Shown piece after piece: positions 1,584-18,688 of a DNA stretch of 22,153 nt. A program made the position numbers and the translations under genes. Every line of letters begins with the position of its first letter. The first letter of the stretch is position 1. The stretch comes from a virus: the IMG/VR virus record IMGVR_UViG_3300023174_003383, positions 1 to 22,153 of that record; one strand, 5' to 3'. Below the pieces are notes generated by a model. That model was not told the DNA's origin, ran no database searches, and saw only the letters and a program-made list of their open reading frames with translations.

Positions 1584-1591
1584 TATTTATC
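1584..1591 (-). promoter_or_regulatory. Late-promoter-like box GATAAATA
   Basis: On the minus strand GATAAATA is followed by ACTGT and the ATG at 1578. The box includes the TAA stop of the upstream bilin reductase gene. It resembles the T4-type late promoter core (TATAAATA). With a start site a few nt downstream the mRNA would be almost leaderless; no Shine-Dalgarno is visible between box and ATG. Confidence 0.5.
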
Positions 1592-2270
1592 GGATTTCAG
1601 GGAACAGACATTCCTGTATGAAATGCTGTACATCGTCCTCTGATAGTCCCAAACTAACCATTACACGCGGTGTATGCGGATTACACTTCTGATTCTGTGC
1701 GTAGTAGTTCTGCGCTTGTGTAGTATCTACCGCAGTATTGTTGGTTTCGGCTACTGTGCTTAGATAGTGTTCTATAGTAGTTCGAGCTAGATCTGTGATC
1801 TGTTGTAATTCTTCTGGATCTTGTACGTTGCCCGCGGCTACCATACTGCCGCTGAATATGTTTGTGGCCCACTCAGGTAAAGCACGTTCTTTGCGCCATT
1901 CTAATTTGCTAACTTCTTCAGCAAACCACTGCATCATGGGATGCTCGGGATCGCCTGCTTTGGAATAATCATGAAAACACCCTGTGATCTTGTTCTTACC
2001 AGCAATAACATCAAATCCGTAGATTGGTGCGGGATTATGTGTGTGTGGAAAGATGCAACAATGCATCATCCAAAGTCCTTTAGACTCTCTAGCGTCTACT
2101 ACATCAACGTGAGCACGGCGATACCGATCACTAGTCCACACACGATTAACCCAGCCAGGTTGATTAAATCTTTCCATTCCAGGCTCATTAATCTCTTGAC
2201 CCGTGCGGCTGAAGTTATCTTCCAGTAGATGTTGGATCTCAATTAGTGTGTCCCAAACCTTACTCTCCAC
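1587..2270 (-). CDS. Ferredoxin-dependent bilin reductase (PcyA/PebS/PcyX family)
   Basis: This 227-residue protein is about the length of cyanophage PebS. Enzymes of this family use reduced ferredoxin to convert biliverdin to phycobilins. The core MMHCCIFP...PIYGFDVIAGKNKITGCFHD holds His70 and Asp87, spaced 17 apart exactly as His88 and Asp105 of PcyA. The C-terminal block YYAQNQKCNPHTPRVMVSLGL matches the family motif before the end (LFPEI). Where many relatives have KND(K)T this protein has CNPHT, so the second catalytic Asp (Asp206 of PebS) seems absent. It overlaps the heme oxygenase gene by 11 nt, giving a two-step heme to biliverdin to bilin unit. Phage PcyX enzymes, reported from oceanic viromes, have this context; the subfamily cannot be fixed by eye. 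Confidence 0.9.
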   Translation of the reverse strand: MESKVWDTLIEIQHLLEDNFSRTGQEINEPGMERFNQPGWVNRVWTSDRYRRAHVDVVDARESKGLWMMHCCIFPHTHNPAPIYGFDVIAGKNKITGCFHDYSKAGDPEHPMMQWFAEEVSKLEWRKERALPEWATNIFSGSMVAAGNVQDPEELQQITDLARTTIEHYLSTVAETNNTAVDTTQAQNYYAQNQKCNPHTPRVMVSLGLSEDDVQHFIQECLFPEIR

Positions 2271-2805
2271 GATATAGGTCCCGCATCATCTTGATAGCAT
2301 ATTCAAATGCCACACGAGCTTCGTCCCCTAAATCGTCAGTGAGCAGTTCACGTATGGCCATCTTCATGGCATCGGCGTTTTCGAAGTCGTAGAACTTGCC
2401 ACTGCTGATGTTCGCTACTTGCTTTTTAATGATTTGACCACCGAATAGGTCGCCCATATGGCGGCAGTATAAATGCGCCTTAATAAGATGTTTACGTTCT
2501 GGATCATTGCCTAGTTTGTGTAAGTATGCCTGATACTCTAATGTAGCAGGAGTTAGATAATAGTATTCGCACTCATCTAATTCTGTGAAGTCTGCGTAGA
2601 TGGCCTTAAGTCTTGGCAGATCATGCATGTTGGTAAAAAATCCTTGACGCTTGCTGTACCACTCGATAGGATCGTATACGGCCAAAAGATTATAGAGATA
2701 GTTTCTATAATCTTCTTTACTAATCTTGCCACTCAGCAACATCTTAGCAAATTTAGTTGTTTCTGCTTCGTGATGCAGATCTTTGGTAATTTCTCGTAGA
2801 CTCAT
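2260..2805 (-). CDS. ho1: Heme oxygenase (biliverdin-producing)
   Basis: This protein (181 residues) should cleave heme to biliverdin IX-alpha, CO and iron. It supplies the substrate of the adjoining bilin reductase. The N-terminus REITKDLHHEAETTKFAK aligns with the proximal heme-ligand helix of HO-1 (EVHTQAE), which points to His11 as ligand. The distal helix GDLFGGQIIKK (118-128) matches GDLSGGQVLKK, with the glycines that pack over the heme. The length is somewhat short of bacterial HOs (about 200-240). It overlaps clpS by 4 nt (ATGA) and the bilin reductase by 11 nt, so the three genes are one transcript, probably from the sigma-70 promoter at 3149-3177. Heme oxygenase is a known cyanophage auxiliary gene; nothing in the window suggests a photosynthetic host. 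Confidence 0.92.
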   Translation of the reverse strand: MSLREITKDLHHEAETTKFAKMLLSGKISKEDYRNYLYNLLAVYDPIEWYSKRQGFFTNMHDLPRLKAIYADFTELDECEYYYLTPATLEYQAYLHKLGNDPERKHLIKAHLYCRHMGDLFGGQIIKKQVANISSGKFYDFENADAMKMAIRELLTDDLGDEARVAFEYAIKMMRDLYRGE

Positions 2806-3101
2806 TCTGGATCCACTAATATACGTAATGGAGCTCCGTTTTGTCTTGCCACTGCTGTAGCTTCCATGCCTTTTTGTTCTGCGATTTCGAAACTGTAAAC
2901 ACCAGCTACTCCGCTGCCTGTTTCGTGTATCTCTAGAGTTATATCTTTGGCAGATGACTCTGTATGTTTGAATATGCCAGTCAGCAATTCGATTACTAAT
3001 TCCATTGGAGTAGCATCATCATTGAGCAGCACCACCTTCCATAAGTTGGGAGGTTGTAAATCTACAACTACTGATTCTTCTACTGAAATTTCTGTTGACA
3101 T
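2802..3101 (-). CDS. clpS: ClpS, adaptor of the ClpA(C)P protease
   Basis: This 99-residue protein matches full-length ClpS. In bacteria ClpS docks on ClpA, delivers N-degron substrates and reduces degradation of SsrA-tagged proteins. The core WKVVLLNDDATPMELVIELL (21-40) and the later IHETGSGVAGVYSFEIAEQKG are clear. Asn27, Asp28 and His59 correspond to the N-degron pocket residues Asn34, Asp35 and His66 of E. coli ClpS. The N-terminal about 17 residues are variable, as usual. The start at 3101 has a weak AGGA about 6 nt upstream. It is first in the clpS-HO-bilin reductase unit. Its presence in a phage that also carries a tmRNA is notable, because both act on the same protease. Confidence 0.92.
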   Translation of the reverse strand: MSTEISVEESVVVDLQPPNLWKVVLLNDDATPMELVIELLTGIFKHTESSAKDITLEIHETGSGVAGVYSFEIAEQKGMEATAVARQNGAPLRILVDPE

Positions 3102-3148: not shown

Positions 3149-3177
3149 ATTATACTATTTAATATCGACAATGTCAA
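3149..3177 (-). promoter_or_regulatory. Sigma-70 promoter for clpS-HO-bilin reductase
   Basis: Minus strand TTGACA (3172-3177), a 17-bp spacer, and TATAAT (3149-3154) are both perfect consensus hexamers at ideal spacing. The -35 lies within the last codons of hsp20 and the spacer includes its TAG stop. It is an expected early promoter using host RNA polymerase. Confidence 0.85.
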
Positions 3178-3589
3178 TAATTTTCGGCTTAGCAGACTCA
3201 GGAATGTTTCTTACCAATTTAATGGTAAGCATGCCATTCTTTGTTTCTGCACCAATTACCTCGATATGTTCGGCCAAAGGAAATTCTTTGACAAAATCTC
3301 GAGTAGCCAGTCCACGATATATGTATTCTTCTGAAGCATAATCAGTGGCTGTGCTTTCGCCTCTAACCACAAGAACATTGTTTTCAACTGTGACAGCAAT
3401 TTCTGTCTTGTCGAAACCAGTGACTGCTAGTTGAATAGCATATTCGTTTTCGCCAGTTTTAATAATGTTATGTGGGGGATAGTTGTTGGGTACGCTGTTG
3501 GCGTAACGGCGTTCCATTTGATCAAACATGGTATCAAACCCAACGAGTGCTCTGCTTAGAGCATCTAGTTTTGTTAATTGATTGTTCAT
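3155..3589 (-). CDS. hsp20: Small heat-shock protein (Hsp20/IbpA-type)
   Basis: This is a 144-residue alpha-crystallin family holdase that keeps unfolding proteins soluble for DnaK. The N-terminus LSRALVGFDTMFDQMERR and YPPHNI are typical of IbpA-type (class A) proteins. The alpha-crystallin domain runs from about residue 40 (NEYAIQLAVTGFDKTEIAVTV) to about 130 and includes YRGLATRDFVKEFPL and GMLTIKL (family motif G-x-L). The C-terminal IIDIVDI may act as the I-x-I anchor. A strong AAAAGGAGA ribosome site precedes the ATG. The leader shares 17 of 18 nt with the dnaK leader. Hsp20 genes are widespread in T4-like cyanophages; here the gene sits beside dnaK, its functional partner. Confidence 0.93.
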   Translation of the reverse strand: MNNQLTKLDALSRALVGFDTMFDQMERRYANSVPNNYPPHNIIKTGENEYAIQLAVTGFDKTEIAVTVENNVLVVRGESTATDYASEEYIYRGLATRDFVKEFPLAEHIEVIGAETKNGMLTIKLVRNIPESAKPKIIDIVDIK

Positions 3590-3645: not shown

Positions 3646-5538
3646 TTAGTCTGCCTTCTTCTCTGTGAAGCTGGCATCAACTACATCATCTGGTCCAGGC
3701 TGGGAAGGCTGTGCTGCCTGTTCCTTGGCCTGCTTTTTCTCCAACAATGTTTTCATCGCTGGGAAAACCTTGTTGAGCTCTTCAGTGATCTTTTCAGCAT
3801 CATCACCTTTGGCTGCTGTTTCGACTGCGGCAATCACAGTTTCAATTTCTGTGATTTCTGCTTCTGTGAGCTCTGCACGGAATTCTTCAAGATCTTTTTT
3901 GACTTCGTGTACCTGTGCTTCTGCTGAATTTCTTGTGTCGATCAGTGTACGAGCTTTCTTGTCTGCTTCTGCATTCAACTCTGCGTCTTTAATCATAGCT
4001 TCGATTTCAGCTTCTGATAAACCACTATTGGACTTGATAGTGATCTTGTTTTCTTTGCCTGTGGCCTTGTCTTTGGCTGAAATGTGCATGATACCGTTGG
4101 CATCGATATCAAAGGTAACTTCGACCTGTGGCTGTCCTCTACGTGCAGGAGCAATGCCATCTAGTTTGAATTCACCCAACAACTTGTTGTATTGTACAAG
4201 CTCACGTTCACCTTGGAACACTTTGATATCCACAGCTGGTTGATTGTCTTCGGCTGTGGAGAATGTCTGCTGTCCCTTGGTTGGAATGGTTGTGTTCTTT
4301 TGAATGATCTTTGACATCACACCGCCCATAGTCTCAATGCCTAGGCTCAATGGAGTAACGTCTAGCAATAGAACGTCATTGCGATCACCACCTAACACAG
4401 CACCCTGGATAGCAGCACCAACTGCTACTGCTTCGTCTGGGTTGACATCTTTACGTGGTGCCTTGCCAAACAGCTTTTCAACTTCTTCTTGTACCTTAGG
4501 CATGCGTGTCTGACCGCCTACAAGGATAACTTCGTCGATGTCTGAGGCACTCACGCCTGCATCCTTGAGAGCAGTGCGGCATGGCTCTAATGAGCGTGTG
4601 ATCAGTTCGTCCACTAGTTGTTCAAGTTTGCTGCGACTTAATTTTACTGCTAGATGCTTAGGACCACTTGCATCTGCTGTGATGTAAGGAAGGTTGACAT
4701 CTGTCTGAGCCGAGCTTGACAATTCAATCTTGGCTTTTTCAGCAGCATCTTTAAGACGCTGTAAGGCCAACATGTCTTTGCTTAGATCCACACCTTGATC
4801 TTTCTTGAACTCATCTACCAAGAAATCCATGATGCGTTGGTCAAAGTCTTCACCTCCTAAGAATGTGTCGCCATTAGTTGATAACACTTCAATTTGTTTG
4901 TCTCCATCCACATTGGCTATTTCGATGATCGAAACATCGAATGTACCGCCACCAAGGTCGTAAACAGCAATTTTCCTATCAGCTTTATCATCTTTATCAA
5001 CGCCATAAGCAAGAGCTGCCGCAGTAGGCTCGTTAATAATACGCAGTACTTCCAAGCCTGCGATCTTTCCAGCGTCTTTAGTAGCCTGTCTTTGGCTGTC
5101 GTTAAAGTACGCAGGGACTGTGATAACTGCTTGAGTAACTGTTGTACCAAGATAATCCTCCGCTGTCTGTTTCATTTTACGCAGAACTTCTGCTGAAATC
5201 TGCGGTGGGGCTAGTTCTTTGTCTTGTGCTCGAACCCATGCATCGCCATTAGAGTTTTCATAGATTTCGTAAGGCATTAGGTCGAGATCTTTTTGCACAG
5301 CCTGTTCTTTGAACTTGCGACCAATCAGTCGCTTGCTGGCATAGATTGTGTTTTTGGGATTTGTTACTGCTTGACGCTTGGCTGAGGCGCCAACAATGAT
5401 TTCGTCTTGTGTATAGGCTACGATTGAGGGCGTAGTTCTAGCACCTTCTGAATTTTCAATAACTTTGGATTTTCCATTCTCGATAACAGCCACGCATGAG
5501 TTGGTGGTGCCGAGGTCAATACCGATGATCTTAGACAT
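3646..5538 (-). CDS. dnaK: DnaK (Hsp70) chaperone
   Basis: This is a complete 630-residue Hsp70 (E. coli 638) with the bacterial architecture. The ATPase domain opens with [15 protein letters not shown] and includes [31 protein letters not shown] and [11 protein letters not shown]. The interdomain linker is [19 protein letters not shown]. The substrate-binding domain and helical lid follow, ending in DDVVDASF, the conserved C-terminal DDVVDA signature. It has no frameshift or missing motif, so it should be active with host DnaJ and GrpE, which are not encoded nearby. The start at 5538 has AAGGAGA at good spacing. A full bacterial-type DnaK is unusual in a phage and was probably acquired from a proteobacterial host. 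It might help fold virion proteins or protect during stress; the role is inferred. Confidence 0.96.
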
Positions 5539-5963: not shown

Positions 5964-6545
5964 TTACCTTTGATTTGCAAATGGTGCGATATACTCTCCG
6001 TTGCTCATTGTACTGGTACGCAGAGCTTTGTAGACATTTTGTACACCCACTGCTTGATTCCACGCATCTTCAAGAGCATGATGTTTTAATACCGGAGGAC
6101 GATTGGGATTGATACCTACATCAAAAATTGTACGGGTGTCGCGAACTTCCCAGAAACTCCAAGGAATGGCTTTGCCAATTTTACGGAAATACCATTCTAG
6201 AATAGTAACGTCAAATCCGGCACCGTGACTCCATACTCGTTTTCCGCCCCAACAAAACTTATACAGTTGTGTCATTGCTTCTTCGATAGAAACTCTGTTT
6301 GCAGGATCAAATGCTTCGTTCTGAGCTTCCTGTGATTGTGAGGCCCACCAATCTAACGTTGCCTGGCTAACTGTAGCACCAATCCGATCACAACTATCAA
6401 CATCAACACGGACATAAAATTTCTCACATTTCTTTTCGTTTACATCGTCACCAAAGGGATCAAATTTAACTGCTCCGATGGTAAGGATTGTGGCTGAGGG
6501 AAGGACGTCAAGCGTCTCCAAGTCTATCATAATATCTGTGTTCAT
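5964..6545 (-). CDS. DEDDh 3'-5' exonuclease, Rv2179c-like
   Basis: This 193-residue protein is an RNase-H-fold exonuclease related to T4 DexA-like and Rv2179c-like enzymes. Exo I is MIDLETL (Asp8, Glu10), Exo II is HGAGFDVTILEW (Asp112), and Exo III is HHALEDA, with His155 four residues before Asp160 as in DEDDh proteins. GAVKFDPFG near residue 24 is typical of this phage subfamily. The substrate may be DNA or RNA; sequence alone does not decide. The upstream promoter has perfect hexamers and its TATAAT ends 6 nt before the ATG, so the transcript should be leaderless or nearly so. No Shine-Dalgarno is seen. Confidence 0.9.
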   Translation of the reverse strand: MNTDIMIDLETLDVLPSATILTIGAVKFDPFGDDVNEKKCEKFYVRVDVDSCDRIGATVSQATLDWWASQSQEAQNEAFDPANRVSIEEAMTQLYKFCWGGKRVWSHGAGFDVTILEWYFRKIGKAIPWSFWEVRDTRTIFDVGINPNRPPVLKHHALEDAWNQAVGVQNVYKALRTSTMSNGEYIAPFANQR

Positions 6546-6551
6546 GCAGTT

Positions 6552-6580
6552 ATTATACTACCTTTCTGACAGAATGTCAA
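6552..6580 (-). promoter_or_regulatory. Perfect sigma-70 promoter for exonuclease-mazG
   Basis: Minus strand TTGACA (6575-6580), 17 bp, TATAAT (6552-6557), then AACTGC and the ATG at 6545. The expected +1 coincides with the start codon, which implies a leaderless mRNA. Confidence 0.85.
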
Positions 6581-6583
6581 TGA

Positions 6584-6820
6584 TTAATAAAGTTTAGGGG
6601 GGAGTTGTTGATCGCGGAGTTTTTTACGCCAACGTGCTTTGGCAGCACCTTTTTTGCGTTTGCGTTCAGTGGTAGGTTTTTCGTAGAATTCTTTGGCACG
6701 TAAGGTATCTAGTGTGCCTGCGTCTTCAATCTTCTTTTTAAATCGACGTAGAGCCTGATTGATGTTTTCGTTTTCTTTAAGAACAACGCCAGTGCCTTTT
6801 GATTTGCTAAATCTATTCAT
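6584..6820 (-). CDS. rpsU: Ribosomal protein bS21 homologue
   Basis: This 78-residue basic protein matches bS21. [17 protein letters not shown] is the conserved N-terminal S21 block and [22 protein letters not shown] the basic C-terminal region. bS21 binds the 30S platform near the anti-Shine-Dalgarno and aids initiation. S21 genes are known in pelagiphages and other large phages and may bias host ribosomes toward phage mRNAs. The phage copy has an N-terminal extension ([16 protein letters not shown]) compared with typical 70-residue host S21. It overlaps the next upstream gene by 8 nt. Many genes here seem to lack Shine-Dalgarno leaders, which would fit a phage interest in this ribosome site; that link is speculation. 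Confidence 0.9.
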
Positions 6821-8720: not shown

Positions 8721-9149
8721 TTAGCTGGACCAGTGCCACCTATTATCTACTTCGTTAAAGCAGGCAGTGGTTTGTAGATTTTTCTGCATGTTATGAGCAA
8801 TAATGCTAACATGCAGGCGTTTGCATAATGTACCATTCCTAGGAAACTGCCAGGCCACTCTAACTGTGCCGCTGGCATTGTTTTTATACCATCTAGAAAA
8901 TTGACCAGGTTGAACTTCTTCAAGAGCCAGTATCAGAGAACTGTAGTAGGCATCTTTCTGCTCAGCATCAAGACTTTTAAACCAACCAAAGCTGACATTG
9001 AGAACCTGTTCTAGCCAAGGGCTGTTGGTCTCGGTATAGAATTTGGGATTTTCTATGTTGATGGTCTGTGCGTTAGTGGACGTATTCATAACCAACAACA
9101 GCACCGTTGTGGTCAAGAATCTGACAGCTTTTGATTTGTACGTTAACAA
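8721..9149 (-). CDS. Exported protein of unknown function, TTG start
   Basis: A 142-residue protein starts at TTG 9149, inside the upstream lipoprotein gene. TGGAG lies 6 nt before that TTG, and starting there gives a good signal peptide: LTYKSKAVRFL, a hydrophobic core, and cleavage near STNA-Q. A longer GTG-started reading from 9188 has no ribosome site. The mature part contains FYTETNSPWLEQVLNVSFGWFKSL, VRVAWQFPRNGTLCKRLH and two cysteines (CKR and TACF) that may form a disulfide. It is the last gene of a three-gene envelope operon (9899 to 8721). No family is recognised. Confidence 0.7.
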   Translation of the reverse strand: MLTYKSKAVRFLTTTVLLLVMNTSTNAQTINIENPKFYTETNSPWLEQVLNVSFGWFKSLDAEQKDAYYSSLILALEEVQPGQFSRWYKNNASGTVRVAWQFPRNGTLCKRLHVSIIAHNMQKNLQTTACFNEVDNRWHWSS

Positions 9150-9423
9150 GTTTATCTCCAGATTGAACAGTTCTATTTGCAATACCACAATGACTGGCCA
9201 TGCCCATTCTCACAGCAGTGAGCCTTTTGAATTGATCGTCAGTGCATTCAACCAAAGTTTCACTGTTTACACGTTCACCATTCTGTGTCTTGATGGTTTG
9301 GCTGGTATGACAGTACTGAGGTTTCTGTGCCTGCACTTTGGGAGCCGAACCACATCCAGTTAGTGCCATAACGCAGGCCAACATGAATGTAGGTACCACG
9401 GCAATGGCAAGGGCTCGCATCAT
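9073..9423 (-). CDS. Lipoprotein of unknown function
   Basis: This 116-residue protein has a type II signal peptide with lipobox ALTGC (Cys24). The mature part has four further cysteines (QYCHTS, VECTDD, SHCGIAN, KSCQIL), probably two disulfides. The start ATG overlaps the stop of the upstream lipoprotein gene (9420-9423). No enzymatic motif is seen. A second Met directly follows the first, so the exact start may be one codon later. Confidence 0.8.
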   Translation of the reverse strand: MMRALAIAVVPTFMLACVMALTGCGSAPKVQAQKPQYCHTSQTIKTQNGERVNSETLVECTDDQFKRLTAVRMGMASHCGIANRTVQSGDKLVNVQIKSCQILDHNGAVVGYEYVH

Positions 9424-9899
9424 TGCACCTTGGCTTGTTTGGCTTCGGAGATCAATTGCTCAAATACATCTTTCTTCATTTCAAGACGCACATAGGTATA
9501 GTGACGTCCATTCATGGTAAAATGACCTTTTTCGGTTTTTACATGTTTACGGATAGCAGTATCTGTGACTTTGTAAGAAATCATAGTACGAGTAGTTTTC
9601 TTGTCATTGACAATGTCAATCACAGTTTCACTGTTAACTGTACCGTTGATGCGTTTTGCAAAGTTGTTCATTGCGATGGCATCCATCTGTTCTTCTGCGG
9701 CCTGTGCATGAATTGACTCACCTGCGCCACAGGCATAGACCATGTCTTCTTTCCACCAGAACCAACCTTTAACACCTTCTTGAGCACAGTCTTGATACCA
9801 ACTTGGTTGTGCATAGGTCTTGCGATCTGGGATGTCTTTCATTGACGAACAACCTGTAACGGCTGCTGCCAATAAGCCTACTAAAATTGCCTTTTTCAT
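9420..9899 (-). CDS. LPP20-like lipoprotein
   Basis: This 159-residue protein has a clear lipobox VTGC (Cys17) after MKKAILVGLL. The mature part (QPSWYQDCAQEGVKGWFWWK, then AGESIHAQAAEEQMDAIAMNNFAKRI, and a beta-rich end) resembles LPP20-family lipoproteins: an aromatic P-x-W-Y start, then an alanine-rich helix and beta strands. It heads the envelope operon and is driven by the sigma-70 promoter at 9933-9961 with an AAAGG ribosome site. The fold resembles parts of CsgG-related proteins, so with the csgF-like gene at the left edge a curli-type envelope function is conceivable, but it is not shown. Confidence 0.7.
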   Translation of the reverse strand: MKKAILVGLLAAAVTGCSSMKDIPDRKTYAQPSWYQDCAQEGVKGWFWWKEDMVYACGAGESIHAQAAEEQMDAIAMNNFAKRINGTVNSETVIDIVNDKKTTRTMISYKVTDTAIRKHVKTEKGHFTMNGRHYTYVRLEMKKDVFEQLISEAKQAKVQ

Positions 9900-9932
9900 C
9901 GTTTGCCTTTCTGTGTGTGTAACGATAACAAT

Positions 9933-9961
9933 AGTATAGCACCATCATTGACCAAAGTCAA
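9933..9961 (-). promoter_or_regulatory. Sigma-70 promoter for the lipoprotein operon
   Basis: Minus strand TTGACT (9956-9961), 17 bp, TATACT (9933-9938); predicted start near 9926, about 27 nt before the ATG. Confidence 0.8.
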
Positions 9962-9978
9962 CTAGGTGCCTTACCAAT

Positions 9979-16447: not shown

Positions 16448-16455
16448 TATTTATC
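16448..16455 (-). promoter_or_regulatory. Late-promoter-like box before the HNH gene
   Basis: GATAAATA overlaps the TGA stop of ahpD (AGT TGA TAAATA) and is followed by TTTCT and the ATG at 16442. Confidence 0.5.
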
Positions 16456-16960
16456 AACTATTCAGCACCTTTGCTACACTATTCATTACTGCCGCTATTC
16501 TGCCGATGTCTCTCAACTGCTCGACAGTATAACCCATAGTCTTCAAACCATCGTAATGGGCTTTTACGCAAAACTCGCATTTACCAACAATGCTTGCAGC
16601 CAAACTGAATGCTTCAAAGTTTGACTTGGTAGTTCCACCATGACTTGCAATAGCATTCATACGTAACTGTGCTGGCAAACCTTTTAGAGCAGGATCATCT
16701 GCCATTTCTACATAAGGATACCATACATTGTTCTGTGCCATGATACTTGCGGCAGTCATTGCTGACTCTGCGTGAACAGGACCATCTGCTAACAAGATAC
16801 TCAACACCTTACCGTTACCAGTTGCAGCCAATGCTGCTACAGCACAGCCTATGGCCACATCTGCATCTAATGTACTACGCAAAAGGACAGCATCAAGATT
16901 TAACTTGGTGTCCTTTGCGTAGTCTGGCAACGCTTCTTTGATAGCGTCATTGAATGCCAT
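16454..16960 (-). CDS. ahpD: AhpD-like alkylhydroperoxidase, with recoded 3' end
   Basis: This 168-residue protein has the AhpD signature GKCEFCVKAHYDG with redox Cys128 and Cys131 and His135. AhpD regenerates AhpC and has weak peroxidase activity itself. The length is usual (about 175). Its start overlaps the last base of the ahpC stop (TAATG), so the pair is one operon from the 17555-17583 promoter. The oddity is in the last 37 codons: they use AGA for Arg, unlike the CGT of the rest of ahpD and ahpC, and differ from the orphan ahpD end at 15216-15332 by 35 of 111 nt but only 4 residues. The end seems to have come with the downstream HNH cassette. Confidence 0.93.
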   Translation of the reverse strand: MAFNDAIKEALPDYAKDTKLNLDAVLLRSTLDADVAIGCAVAALAATGNGKVLSILLADGPVHAESAMTAASIMAQNNVWYPYVEMADDPALKGLPAQLRMNAIASHGGTTKSNFEAFSLAASIVGKCEFCVKAHYDGLKTMGYTVEQLRDIGRIAAVMNSVAKVLNS

Positions 16961-17499
16961 TATAGTGTCTCTCCGCCTACTGTACGGTTACAAGCGCACA
17001 ACTCGCCTGTTTGTAGCGCATCCAATACACGAAGTGTTTCTTCTGGGCTACGACCAACATTTAAGTTGTTGACAGTAACGTGTTGGATAACATTTTCTGG
17101 GTCAACGATGAATGTTGCACGAAGTGCGGCACCTGCTGGAGCATAGAACACACCTAGTTGTTCAATCAATGACAGCTCGCCACGCTGTGTGTCTGCGAAC
17201 TGTGTATGTGTGATCTTTGCAAGATCTGGATGAGACTTCTGCCATGCTACTTTACAGAACTCATTGTCTGTGCTACCTGTTAGTAATACTGCGTCACGGT
17301 CAGCAAAGTCACCAGCCAACTTATCATATGCTACAATCTCTGTAGGACAAACGAATGTGAAGTCCTTTGGGTAGTAAACGATTACTTTCCACTTGCCTGC
17401 GAATGACTCATCTGTGATATCAAAGAATGCATCTTCTGGTTGTCCTGGCTTGACTCCTGTTACTACAAATTTTTCTAACTTATCGCCAACTGTTTTCAT
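16960..17499 (-). CDS. ahpC: AhpC-type 2-Cys peroxiredoxin
   Basis: This 179-residue peroxiredoxin reduces H2O2, peroxynitrite and alkyl hydroperoxides. The peroxidatic site is FTFVCPTEIVAY (Cys51). The C-terminal resolving region ELCACNR has Cys168 and Cys170, as in mycobacterial-type AhpC that is recycled by AhpD. Substrate-site residues (PTE and R117-like RATFIVDPE) are present. An AAGGAGA ribosome site precedes the ATG. It is driven by its own sigma-70-like promoter and has a 5'-end hairpin. Phage carriage may counter oxidative damage late in infection. Confidence 0.95.
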   Translation of the reverse strand: MKTVGDKLEKFVVTGVKPGQPEDAFFDITDESFAGKWKVIVYYPKDFTFVCPTEIVAYDKLAGDFADRDAVLLTGSTDNEFCKVAWQKSHPDLAKITHTQFADTQRGELSLIEQLGVFYAPAGAALRATFIVDPENVIQHVTVNNLNVGRSPEETLRVLDALQTGELCACNRTVGGETL

Positions 17500-18155: not shown

Positions 18156-18204
18156 ATGACTATTGTCATCCACTATTATATAGCAGAATCTATATAGAGG
18201 TCAA
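18156..18204 (-). promoter_or_regulatory. Sigma-70 promoter and 5' hairpin of the OMP gene
   Basis: Minus strand TTGACC (18199-18204), 18 bp, TATAAT (18175-18180). The predicted +1 is near 18168; the hairpin ATGAC/GTCAT (18156-18169) begins there. The -35 abuts the U-run of the tmRNA terminator, in the same GCTTTTTCTTGAC string as at 12983-12996. Confidence 0.75.
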
Positions 18205-18205
18205 G

Positions 18206-18232
18206 AAAAAGCGGCATTTTCAGCCGCTTTTT
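18206..18232 (-). terminator. Terminator after the tmRNA
   Basis: On the minus strand the stem GCGGC/GCCGC with loop TGAAAAT is followed by TTTTTC. An A-run on the other side makes it potentially bidirectional. Confidence 0.88.
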
Positions 18233-18619
18233 GGTAGTTTTGTTTACAAGGTATTTCCTACCCCGGACCGCTGTTTTTTAGGCAGCTAGAGCAAATCTGC
18301 TTTCATTAGCAGCACCGCGAACGGTGTTACCAGTGAAGCTCATTGCGCTGAAGTCAAATGTATCTGCGTTTGCATTTACGAGTTTTGCTTGATTAACGGT
18401 CATCGCCTACCGTGTTGCCGTCTCCATTATCTCACCCTGTCGAAACCATGGCAGGCCCATTTAAACACACTTTGGTTTATTAAGAGTTATGACTATGTCA
18501 AAGAGCTCCTGGGATACCAAACCTGATCTTTTTACGGATTCAAGTATGCTTAGGTGGACCTGGCGGGAGTCGAACCCGCGTCCAGAATGCCTTCACTTTG
18601 AAGGGATTACAACAATTCC
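18233..18619 (-). ncRNA. ssrA: Circularly permuted (two-piece) tmRNA
   Basis: Read on the minus strand, the acceptor piece comes first: hairpin CCTTCA/TGAAGG, T-arm GACGCGGGTTCGACTCCCGCC, acceptor strand CAGGTCC, discriminator A and CC, ending at 18553. After about 94 nt of intervening sequence the coding piece begins at 18458 with GGGCCTG, which pairs with CAGGTCC over 7 bp (one G-U), then GGTTTCGACAGGG as in tmRNA 5' ends. The resume codon is GCA in GTAAAT-GCA-AAC. The tag is 31 codons, beginning ANADTFDF and ending ANESRFALAA, then TAA. ALAA is the ClpXP/ClpAP degron. Permuted tmRNAs occur in alphaproteobacteria, some betaproteobacteria and cyanobacteria. Outer ends are approximate. No strong own promoter is visible; transcription from 19064-19092 through csp is likely. 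Confidence 0.93.
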
Positions 18620-18688
18620 TTACATGAAAACTTCAATCAAAACAAATACAACAATTAAAACTGCTACAATGATTTGATATGCTTTCAT
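18620..18688 (-). CDS. 22-residue single-span membrane microprotein
   Basis: Five nt after the csp stop an ATG opens a 22-codon frame: MKAYQ, then IIVAVLIVVFVLI, then EVFM-stop. The product is a single hydrophobic helix with a positively charged N-terminus, so insertion with the N-terminus in the cytoplasm is expected. There is no clear Shine-Dalgarno; the TAAGTAATATG spacing suggests translational coupling to csp. Its stop directly abuts the tmRNA acceptor piece. It may be a real regulatory microprotein (such as a protease or channel modulator), or just part of the tmRNA leader that happens to be open. Confidence 0.5.
   Translation of the reverse strand: MKAYQIIVAVLIVVFVLIEVFM

Follow-up and report, generated by a model that had tools for sequence, protein, structure and literature searches.

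The stretch of viral DNA analyzed in this study (hereafter the window, a virus record of 22,153 bases) carries on its minus strand, in the order of transcription, dnaK, an Hsp20 gene, clpS, hemO, and a bilin reductase gene. The overlapping heme oxygenase and bilin reductase genes proposed in the initial annotation are real, since both match Pfam families above Pfam's own cut-offs. The features relevant to the following sections are listed below.

1587..2270, minus strand: PcyX-type ferredoxin-dependent bilin reductase (FDBR), 227 aa, GTG start; Pfam PF05996 (Fe_bilin_red), E = 1e-13
2260..2805, minus strand: heme oxygenase (HemO) of the "type B" lineage, 181 aa; Pfam PF01126 (Heme_oxygenase), E = 3.4e-23
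2802..3101, minus strand: ClpS, ClpAP protease adaptor, 99 aa; Pfam PF02617, E = 9.4e-27
3149..3177, minus strand: sigma-70 promoter of perfect consensus, TTGACA-17-TATAAT (12/12 match), 47 bases upstream of clpS
3155..3589, minus strand: small heat-shock protein of the Hsp20/IbpA type; Pfam PF00011, E = 2e-17
3646..5538, minus strand: DnaK (Hsp70) of the proteobacterial type, 630 aa; NCBIfam NF001413 (982.6 bits) and TIGR02350 (906.3 bits), both over cut-off
16454-16960: AhpD
16960-17499: AhpC
about 18187-18665, minus strand: permuted tmRNA of the betaproteobacterial type; RF01850, 133.5 bits (18306-18665), RF04321, 140.2 bits (18278-18614), and ARAGORN

The hemO and reductase genes overlap by 11 bases, and the end of clpS lies over the start of hemO by 4 bases. 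These stop/start overlaps, together with the consensus host-type promoter before clpS, suggest that clpS, hemO, and pcyX may be expressed as one early, translationally coupled unit. The HemO protein has canonical HO-1-like features, namely a proximal His11 and a distal-helix GDLFGG at 118-123, and aligned with HO-1 chains (E about 1e-11) across the proximal His and the GDLSGG helix. The NCBIfam ClpS families matched the window ClpS but below their curated cut-offs; NDD and His, which we take to be the N-degron pocket residues of ClpS, were seen in the sequence by eye.

In addition to AhpC, AhpD, and the permuted tmRNA, the window encodes MazG, ribosomal protein S21, glutaredoxin, and a class I ribonucleotide reductase beta subunit. 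The phage S21 gene (6584-6820) is kept near the cassette in many relatives, and a second perfect TTGACA-17-TATAAT promoter was observed on the minus strand at 6552-6580, just upstream of an exoribonuclease-like gene (5964-6545). No photosynthesis genes were recognized among the window proteins scanned, in agreement with the initial annotation, and no alaS was recognized within the 22 kb.

Family placement of the bilin reductase

In a PDB sequence search with the window reductase, the best solved relative was PcyX (5OWG) with 243 bits, compared with 58 bits for PcyA, and PebS chains gave no match at E up to 0.01. The identity over the alignment was 49.5% to PcyX (5OWG) and 26.8% to PcyA. The catalytic positions Asp56, His70, and Asp87 of the window reductase correspond to Asp55, His69, and Asp86 of 5OWG, counted from the first Met of the 5OWG match, and His70 and Asp87 also align with His88 and Asp105 of PcyA; the His/Asp catalytic pair noted earlier is thus in place. 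The column of the PcyA hallmark Glu76 holds Asp. The initial annotation had further read the sequence CNPHT as a replacement of the second catalytic Asp of PebS-type enzymes. Asn197 does fall on Asp206 of PebS, in a region where the alignment is weak, but N-P-H-T is common to the window (C-N-P-H-T), PcyX 5OWG, and the Pelagibacter phage Mosig, and therefore CNPHT is the normal state of the PcyX family and not a replacement or loss.

A relative of the window reductase is encoded by 381 IMG/VR stretches. The loci kept from the scans are called here freshwater (window-like loci L001-L079), marine jumbo (L086-L089 and L136-L145), and pelagiphage-type (L081 and L146-L225), names that follow the origin of the best-known members and not the sample site of each locus. 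The Asp55/His69/Asp86 pattern was found in 79/79 freshwater, 81/81 pelagiphage-type, and 14/14 marine jumbo loci (Asp86 in 13 of the 14, with one gap), so that Asp55 is kept in all 174 aligned loci; as the viral scans used the best 80 of 381 and the best 80 of 194, more distant relatives, among them any that do not have Asp55, may have escaped this count. Reductases distinct at <95% identity numbered 53 of the 79 in the freshwater group, 10 of the 14 in the marine jumbo group, and 33 of the 81 in the pelagiphage-type group, and owing to such near-copies the locus counts overstate independent cases.

An AlphaFold model of the reductase, built with 21 phage sequences, had a mean pLDDT of 91.9. 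The model fitted 5OWG with Z 24.6 (1.3 Å over 177 residues), PcyA chains with Z about 23.6 (2.7 Å over 218 residues), and PebS with Z about 18.4 (3.4 Å); since the scores for PcyX and PcyA are close, the fold alone separates these two families little. In the tree, three reductase groups were resolved, namely the pelagiphage type, the marine jumbo phages, and the freshwater phages including the window, and in another tree the window was grouped with PcyX and separated from two PcyA rows (100/100), with long branches. The split of PcyX from PcyA and PebS appears firm in these sequence trees, and its depth is not firm, since PebS and PcyA form very long branches. The position of PebS beside L078/L079 in one of them, with a branch length of 10, was disregarded as a long-branch artefact.

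The assignment of the window reductase to the PcyX type, as first suggested in the initial annotation, is therefore supported by sequence, the diagnostic residue Asp56, predicted structure, and tree. From the presence of Asp55 we infer that the product should be phycoerythrobilin (PEB) and not phycocyanobilin (PCB): in the available text of Wegner et al. 2024 (PMC11480375), Asp55 is called PcyX-specific, and its absence is used to explain the PCB product of the enzyme of phage CB_2. We consider it quite unlikely that the reductase is a true PcyA making PCB, like that of the freshwater phage CB_2. The assayed CB_2 enzyme does make PCB (PMC11480375), and the FDBR family is described, in the part of the literature available, as one in which product specificity is not reliably predictable from sequence and regiospecificity shifts easily (PMC13193486). 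However, the CB_2 enzyme is without the Asp55 that the window and all the aligned phage loci possess, the Glu76 of PcyA is Asp in the window, and the tree places the window away from PcyA.

Relatives, gene neighborhood, and host

HemO directly abuts the reductase in 78 of the 79 kept loci, a pairing far beyond chance, and both genes are under purifying selection. The dN/dS values between the window and its relatives were 0.05-0.10 for the reductase (11 comparisons) and 0.03-0.11 for HemO (9 of the 11 comparisons gave a value, and 2 were saturated). A degenerate gene was ruled out by this purifying selection together with the intact catalytic residues. An 85.9-kb contig carries two oppositely oriented Hsp20/HemO/reductase blocks (L018:8645-20656), whose reductases are 87.6% and 85.9% identical to that of the window; two phages may have been joined into a chimera here, or the inverted duplication may be genuine.

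Among 398 sampled Pseudomonadota genomes, an FDBR match was found in one, which is the L089 contig, and plasmids gave no FDBR match. A bacterial PcyX, which four matches on contigs of metagenome-assembled genomes (MAGs; L086-L089) might have indicated, was rejected, since the gene order of L088 and L089 suggests phage contigs; the short contigs L086 and L087 have the same Hsp20-ClpS-HO-FDBR order. The four are binned in Halobacteroidaceae, Pirellulales, Neomarinimicrobiota, and Rickettsiales MAGs, despite their phage gene order, and would be misleading if read as bacterial FDBRs.

The clpS gene lies directly upstream of hemO in 73/79 freshwater and 13/14 marine jumbo loci, and in 0/81 pelagiphage-type loci, 57 of which have at least 1600 bases upstream of the reductase. 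Among loci with enough upstream DNA, Hsp20 is a neighbor in 74/77 freshwater and 12/13 marine jumbo loci, and DnaK in 72/75 and 3/12, respectively. Since the freshwater and marine jumbo loci have a longer gene run in common, co-location alone is no proof of joint function, and the ClpS linkage may be mere synteny. A sigma-70 match of 11-12 upstream of clpS was found in 16 of 76 freshwater loci, compared with 202 of 7600 random picks; the other 60 freshwater loci had no match of 11 or better, nor had any of 13 marine jumbo loci. A carbon-nitrogen hydrolase gene stands between HemO and the reductase in 3 of the 14 marine jumbo loci (L088, at 8919-9974, L089, and L136), and in one freshwater locus this position is occupied by a 515-aa protein that by eye resembles flavin-dependent tryptophan halogenases (L051:8503-10050).

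Two HemO lineages occupy the same slot in the freshwater phages. Type B, found in 19 of the 78 typed loci plus the window, is 70-94% identical to the window HemO, and type A, found in 54, is <55% identical; five in between were counted in neither type, and L001, whose gene runs off the end of its contig, was omitted. The reductases of the same phages are 76-95% identical to that of the window. All type-B sequences group together in the HemO tree (support 100). In the DnaK tree, by contrast, a single clade of the phages that carry them is rejected (p-AU 0.022), with 4 changes, of which firm branches force at least 2. The plain reading of these trees would be that HemO has been exchanged in place, with a HemO kept each time; as such a clade is not rejected in the reductase tree (p-AU 0.079), this exchange rests on the DnaK tree.

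Concerning the phage, a 280-kb IMG/VR contig (G001, locus L003) corresponds to the window in nearly every gene and has an identical predicted tmRNA tag of 31 residues. The G001 terminase large subunit is nearest to those of Pseudomonas and Sinorhizobium jumbo phages, being 53.9% identical over 98% to that of the PA5oct-like Pseudomonas phages (about 286 kb) and about 30% identical to that of Mosig, which indicates a jumbo phage whose terminase is T4-type and which differs from the pelagiphage type. On such sequence affinities, the window phage belongs with the ~280-kb PA5oct-like jumbo phages and not with cyanophages or the pelagiphage Mosig. The shared tag ends in ANESRFALAA, and that of another relative, G002, has 27 residues and ends in ANDAEFAIAA.

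The gene content was surveyed in 20 related contigs, which range from 48 to 400 kb and are possibly fragments, and in the 21 records that these form with the window. The 5-aminolevulinate synthase AlaS was found in 9/20, including the syntenic G001, where alaS lies about 42 kb from the cassette. PF00124 (PsbA/PsbD/PufL/PufM) was found in 0/20, an absence that is no proof in possible fragments; with the same proviso, the phytochrome PHY domain and the 2Fe-2S ferredoxin Fer2 (PF00111) were found in 0/21. To see whether the phage might be a pmoC phage like CB_2, an AmoC/PmoC profile was searched; it matched in 0/21 records, and the control of the same search also matched nowhere. AhpC and AhpD occur also in G001, and no match for them was found in G002.

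Ferrochelatase (PF00762) was recognized in 1/21 records, a 400-kb relative (G009:293319-294278, L228) in which a true ferrochelatase (389.6 bits) occurs with AlaS and the HemO/PcyX pair, so that both ends of heme synthesis and heme breakdown are present on one phage contig. A candidate ferrochelatase in G002, which rested on a 33% match to the "putative ferrochelatase" of Mosig (L081:6354-7124), was dropped since PF00762 had no match in G002; because the Pfam ferrochelatase profile does not recognize this match, the Mosig annotation itself may be wrong.

The host is likely a heterotrophic proteobacterium, as judged from the DnaK type, the permuted tmRNA type, and the G001 terminase; a probably heterotrophic host had been suggested in the initial annotation. 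The window DnaK scored 747-771 bits against PRK13410 and PRK13411, presumably cyanobacterial DnaK models, in both cases under the cut-off. Of 299 sampled Pseudomonadota genomes, the best reach 70-74% identity to it, and 298 gave DnaK matches, so that the comparison discriminates little. In plasmid records, DnaK identity was 74% over 553 residues for Cupriavidus and Neisseria, 68% for Burkholderia, and 66% for Acinetobacter. Of 32 genomes tested, G294 alone had a beta-type tmRNA over cut-off, which argues against simply supposing that the genomes with the best DnaK matches have the tmRNA type of the phage; among the matches listed, the best-DnaK genomes G126, G194, G273, and G318 belong to the same order as G294. 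A betaproteobacterial host is accordingly a lean suggested by these sequences and not a result.

Proposed heme breakdown and its possible benefit

We propose that the pair acts as a two-enzyme line for heme breakdown, which likely supplies iron and removes heme while PcyX serves as a biliverdin sink, and give this explanation a probability of about 0.66. HemO would open heme to biliverdin IXalpha, iron, and CO, and PcyX would reduce biliverdin with four electrons from host ferredoxin via 15,16-dihydrobiliverdin to PEB; the electrons would come from the host, as Fer2 is found in none of the 21 phage records. The benefit in a non-photosynthetic proteobacterium would be heme turnover: the freed iron could be used, for example, by the iron-dependent class I ribonucleotide reductase that the phage itself encodes, loose heme left by damaged or broken-down heme proteins of the host would be removed, and PcyX would clear biliverdin so that HemO keeps turning. 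The retention of a HemO through lineage exchange, the AlaS genes of nearly half the related contigs, the ferrochelatase of one record, and the ribonucleotide reductase beta subunit in the window are consistent with this proposal, and the clpS promoter, which is not conserved in most relatives, counts against it.

The next purpose in rank is that the bilins are antioxidants, and that HemO and PcyX, together with AhpC/AhpD, Hsp20, DnaK, and ClpS, defend the infected cell against oxidative stress and damaged proteins. This explanation, which we regard as unlikely overall, accounts for AhpC and AhpD in the window equally well as iron/heme removal does; both are also present in G001, and chaperones adjoin in most loci. 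However, AhpC/AhpD lie about 14 kb off and had no match in G002, and other large phages also carry chaperones, so that the neighborhood may be plain synteny.

A use of the bilin as the chromophore of a host or phage photoreceptor (a phytochrome or a bilin-binding globin), altering the light sensing of the infected cell, is weakened by the PHY domain, which is absent from the 21 phage records and, among 120 genomes of a candidate host order, that of G294, exceeds the cut-off in only 10. PEB-loaded phytochromes, moreover, fluoresce and are not known to photoswitch. On the other side, a functional Cph1 phytochrome was reported to be assembled with the CB_2 enzymes in E. coli (PMC11480375), and bilin-binding globins are described in heterotrophs (PMC10151467). 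We find this use improbable; among the options that the initial annotation had offered for the bilin, iron release and an antioxidant role thus remain, while the phytochrome chromophore has lost ground.

We hold equally small hope for a further idea, namely that clpS, hemO, and pcyX form a module with which the phage takes control of heme metabolism in the host, so that the phage and not the host would set the flux, freeing charged tRNA-Glu and iron. The phage ClpS would steer host ClpAP, for example to glutamyl-tRNA reductase or host heme proteins, the phage AlaS would replace the tRNA-consuming entry step, free of feedback and bypassing glutamyl-tRNA reductase, and HemO and PcyX would bleed heme off as PEB and iron. 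The turnover of glutamyl-tRNA reductase by Clp is heme-controlled in bacteria. In plants, binding of glutamyl-tRNA reductase by ClpS/ClpF/ClpC leads to its breakdown, and bacterial turnover by Clp and Lon has been described in the same source, as far as its text is available (PMC6597238).

Although cyanophages carry hemO, pebS, and pcyA, a cyanophage pigment set for light harvesting in a photosynthetic host was rejected as hardly credible, given that the reductase is placed with PcyX and not PebS, PF00124 is absent from the 20 related contigs, the G001 terminase is nearest to Pseudomonas/Sinorhizobium jumbo phages, and DnaK is proteobacterial. Heme turnover is the favored purpose.

Comparison with known phage systems

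Phage HemO-PcyX pairs and their co-occurrence with alaS in freshwater phages have already been published (PMC11480375), and phage PcyX is also mentioned in the available parts of PMC10151467 and PMC13193486. As far as the searches go, four points appear to be new, namely the jumbo lineage akin to PA5oct, the freshwater clade with Asp55, the clpS-hemO-pcyX unit next to chaperone genes, and the HemO exchange in one slot, although some of these phages may be among the contigs in the supplements of PMC11480375. No report of a phage clpS-heme oxygenase/chaperone unit was found in the literature searched, from which subscription journals were mostly outside coverage, and the words ClpS, DnaK, jumbo, and chaperone are absent from the main text of PMC11480375. 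The Pseudomonas jumbo phages of the PA5oct/Paride type have terminases akin to that of G001 but are absent from the records with an FDBR match.

The cyanophage enzymes PebS (P-SSM2) and PcyA (P-SSM4) share the superfamily and, by the predicted model, the fold of the window reductase; they differ in that PebS is very remote, the P-SSM4 PcyA is 26% identical, and their hosts are photosynthetic. The PcyX of marine metagenome phages (PcyX_EBK42635, PDB 5OWG) resembles the window reductase in ~50% identity over the full length, the Asp55/His69/Asp86 residues, NPHT, and the predicted fold. Unlike PcyX_EBK42635, the window reductase lies in a separate jumbo-phage clade, behind clpS, with Hsp20 and mostly DnaK. 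The Pelagibacter phage Mosig EXVC030M (MT647606) also has overlapping hemO and pcyX genes and a reductase 51.8% identical to that of the window, but its genome is 141 kb, the pair lies between 2OG-oxygenase genes and neck genes, and it has its own ferredoxin; no ClpS or DnaK product names were found among its annotated features.

The role of heme-to-bilin genes in phages of non-photosynthetic bacteria has been called still enigmatic (PMC11480375), and the retention of a heme oxygenase even when its lineage is swapped bears on why such phages carry them. The present data provide a testable setting for this question in a common freshwater and marine jumbo-phage lineage with a defined three-gene unit including a protease adaptor. 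A published counterpart is the hemO/pcyA/X/valaS cassette of aquatic phages, described by Wegner et al. 2024 also in a "broken" form in which alaS is set apart from the pair on the same contig; G001 and G002 show this arrangement. The CB_2 phage of that report differs, its enzyme being a PcyA without Asp55, while the window relatives have a PA5oct-like backbone, and the PEB predicted for the window reductase differs from the PCB of the assayed freshwater phage enzyme (PMC11480375).
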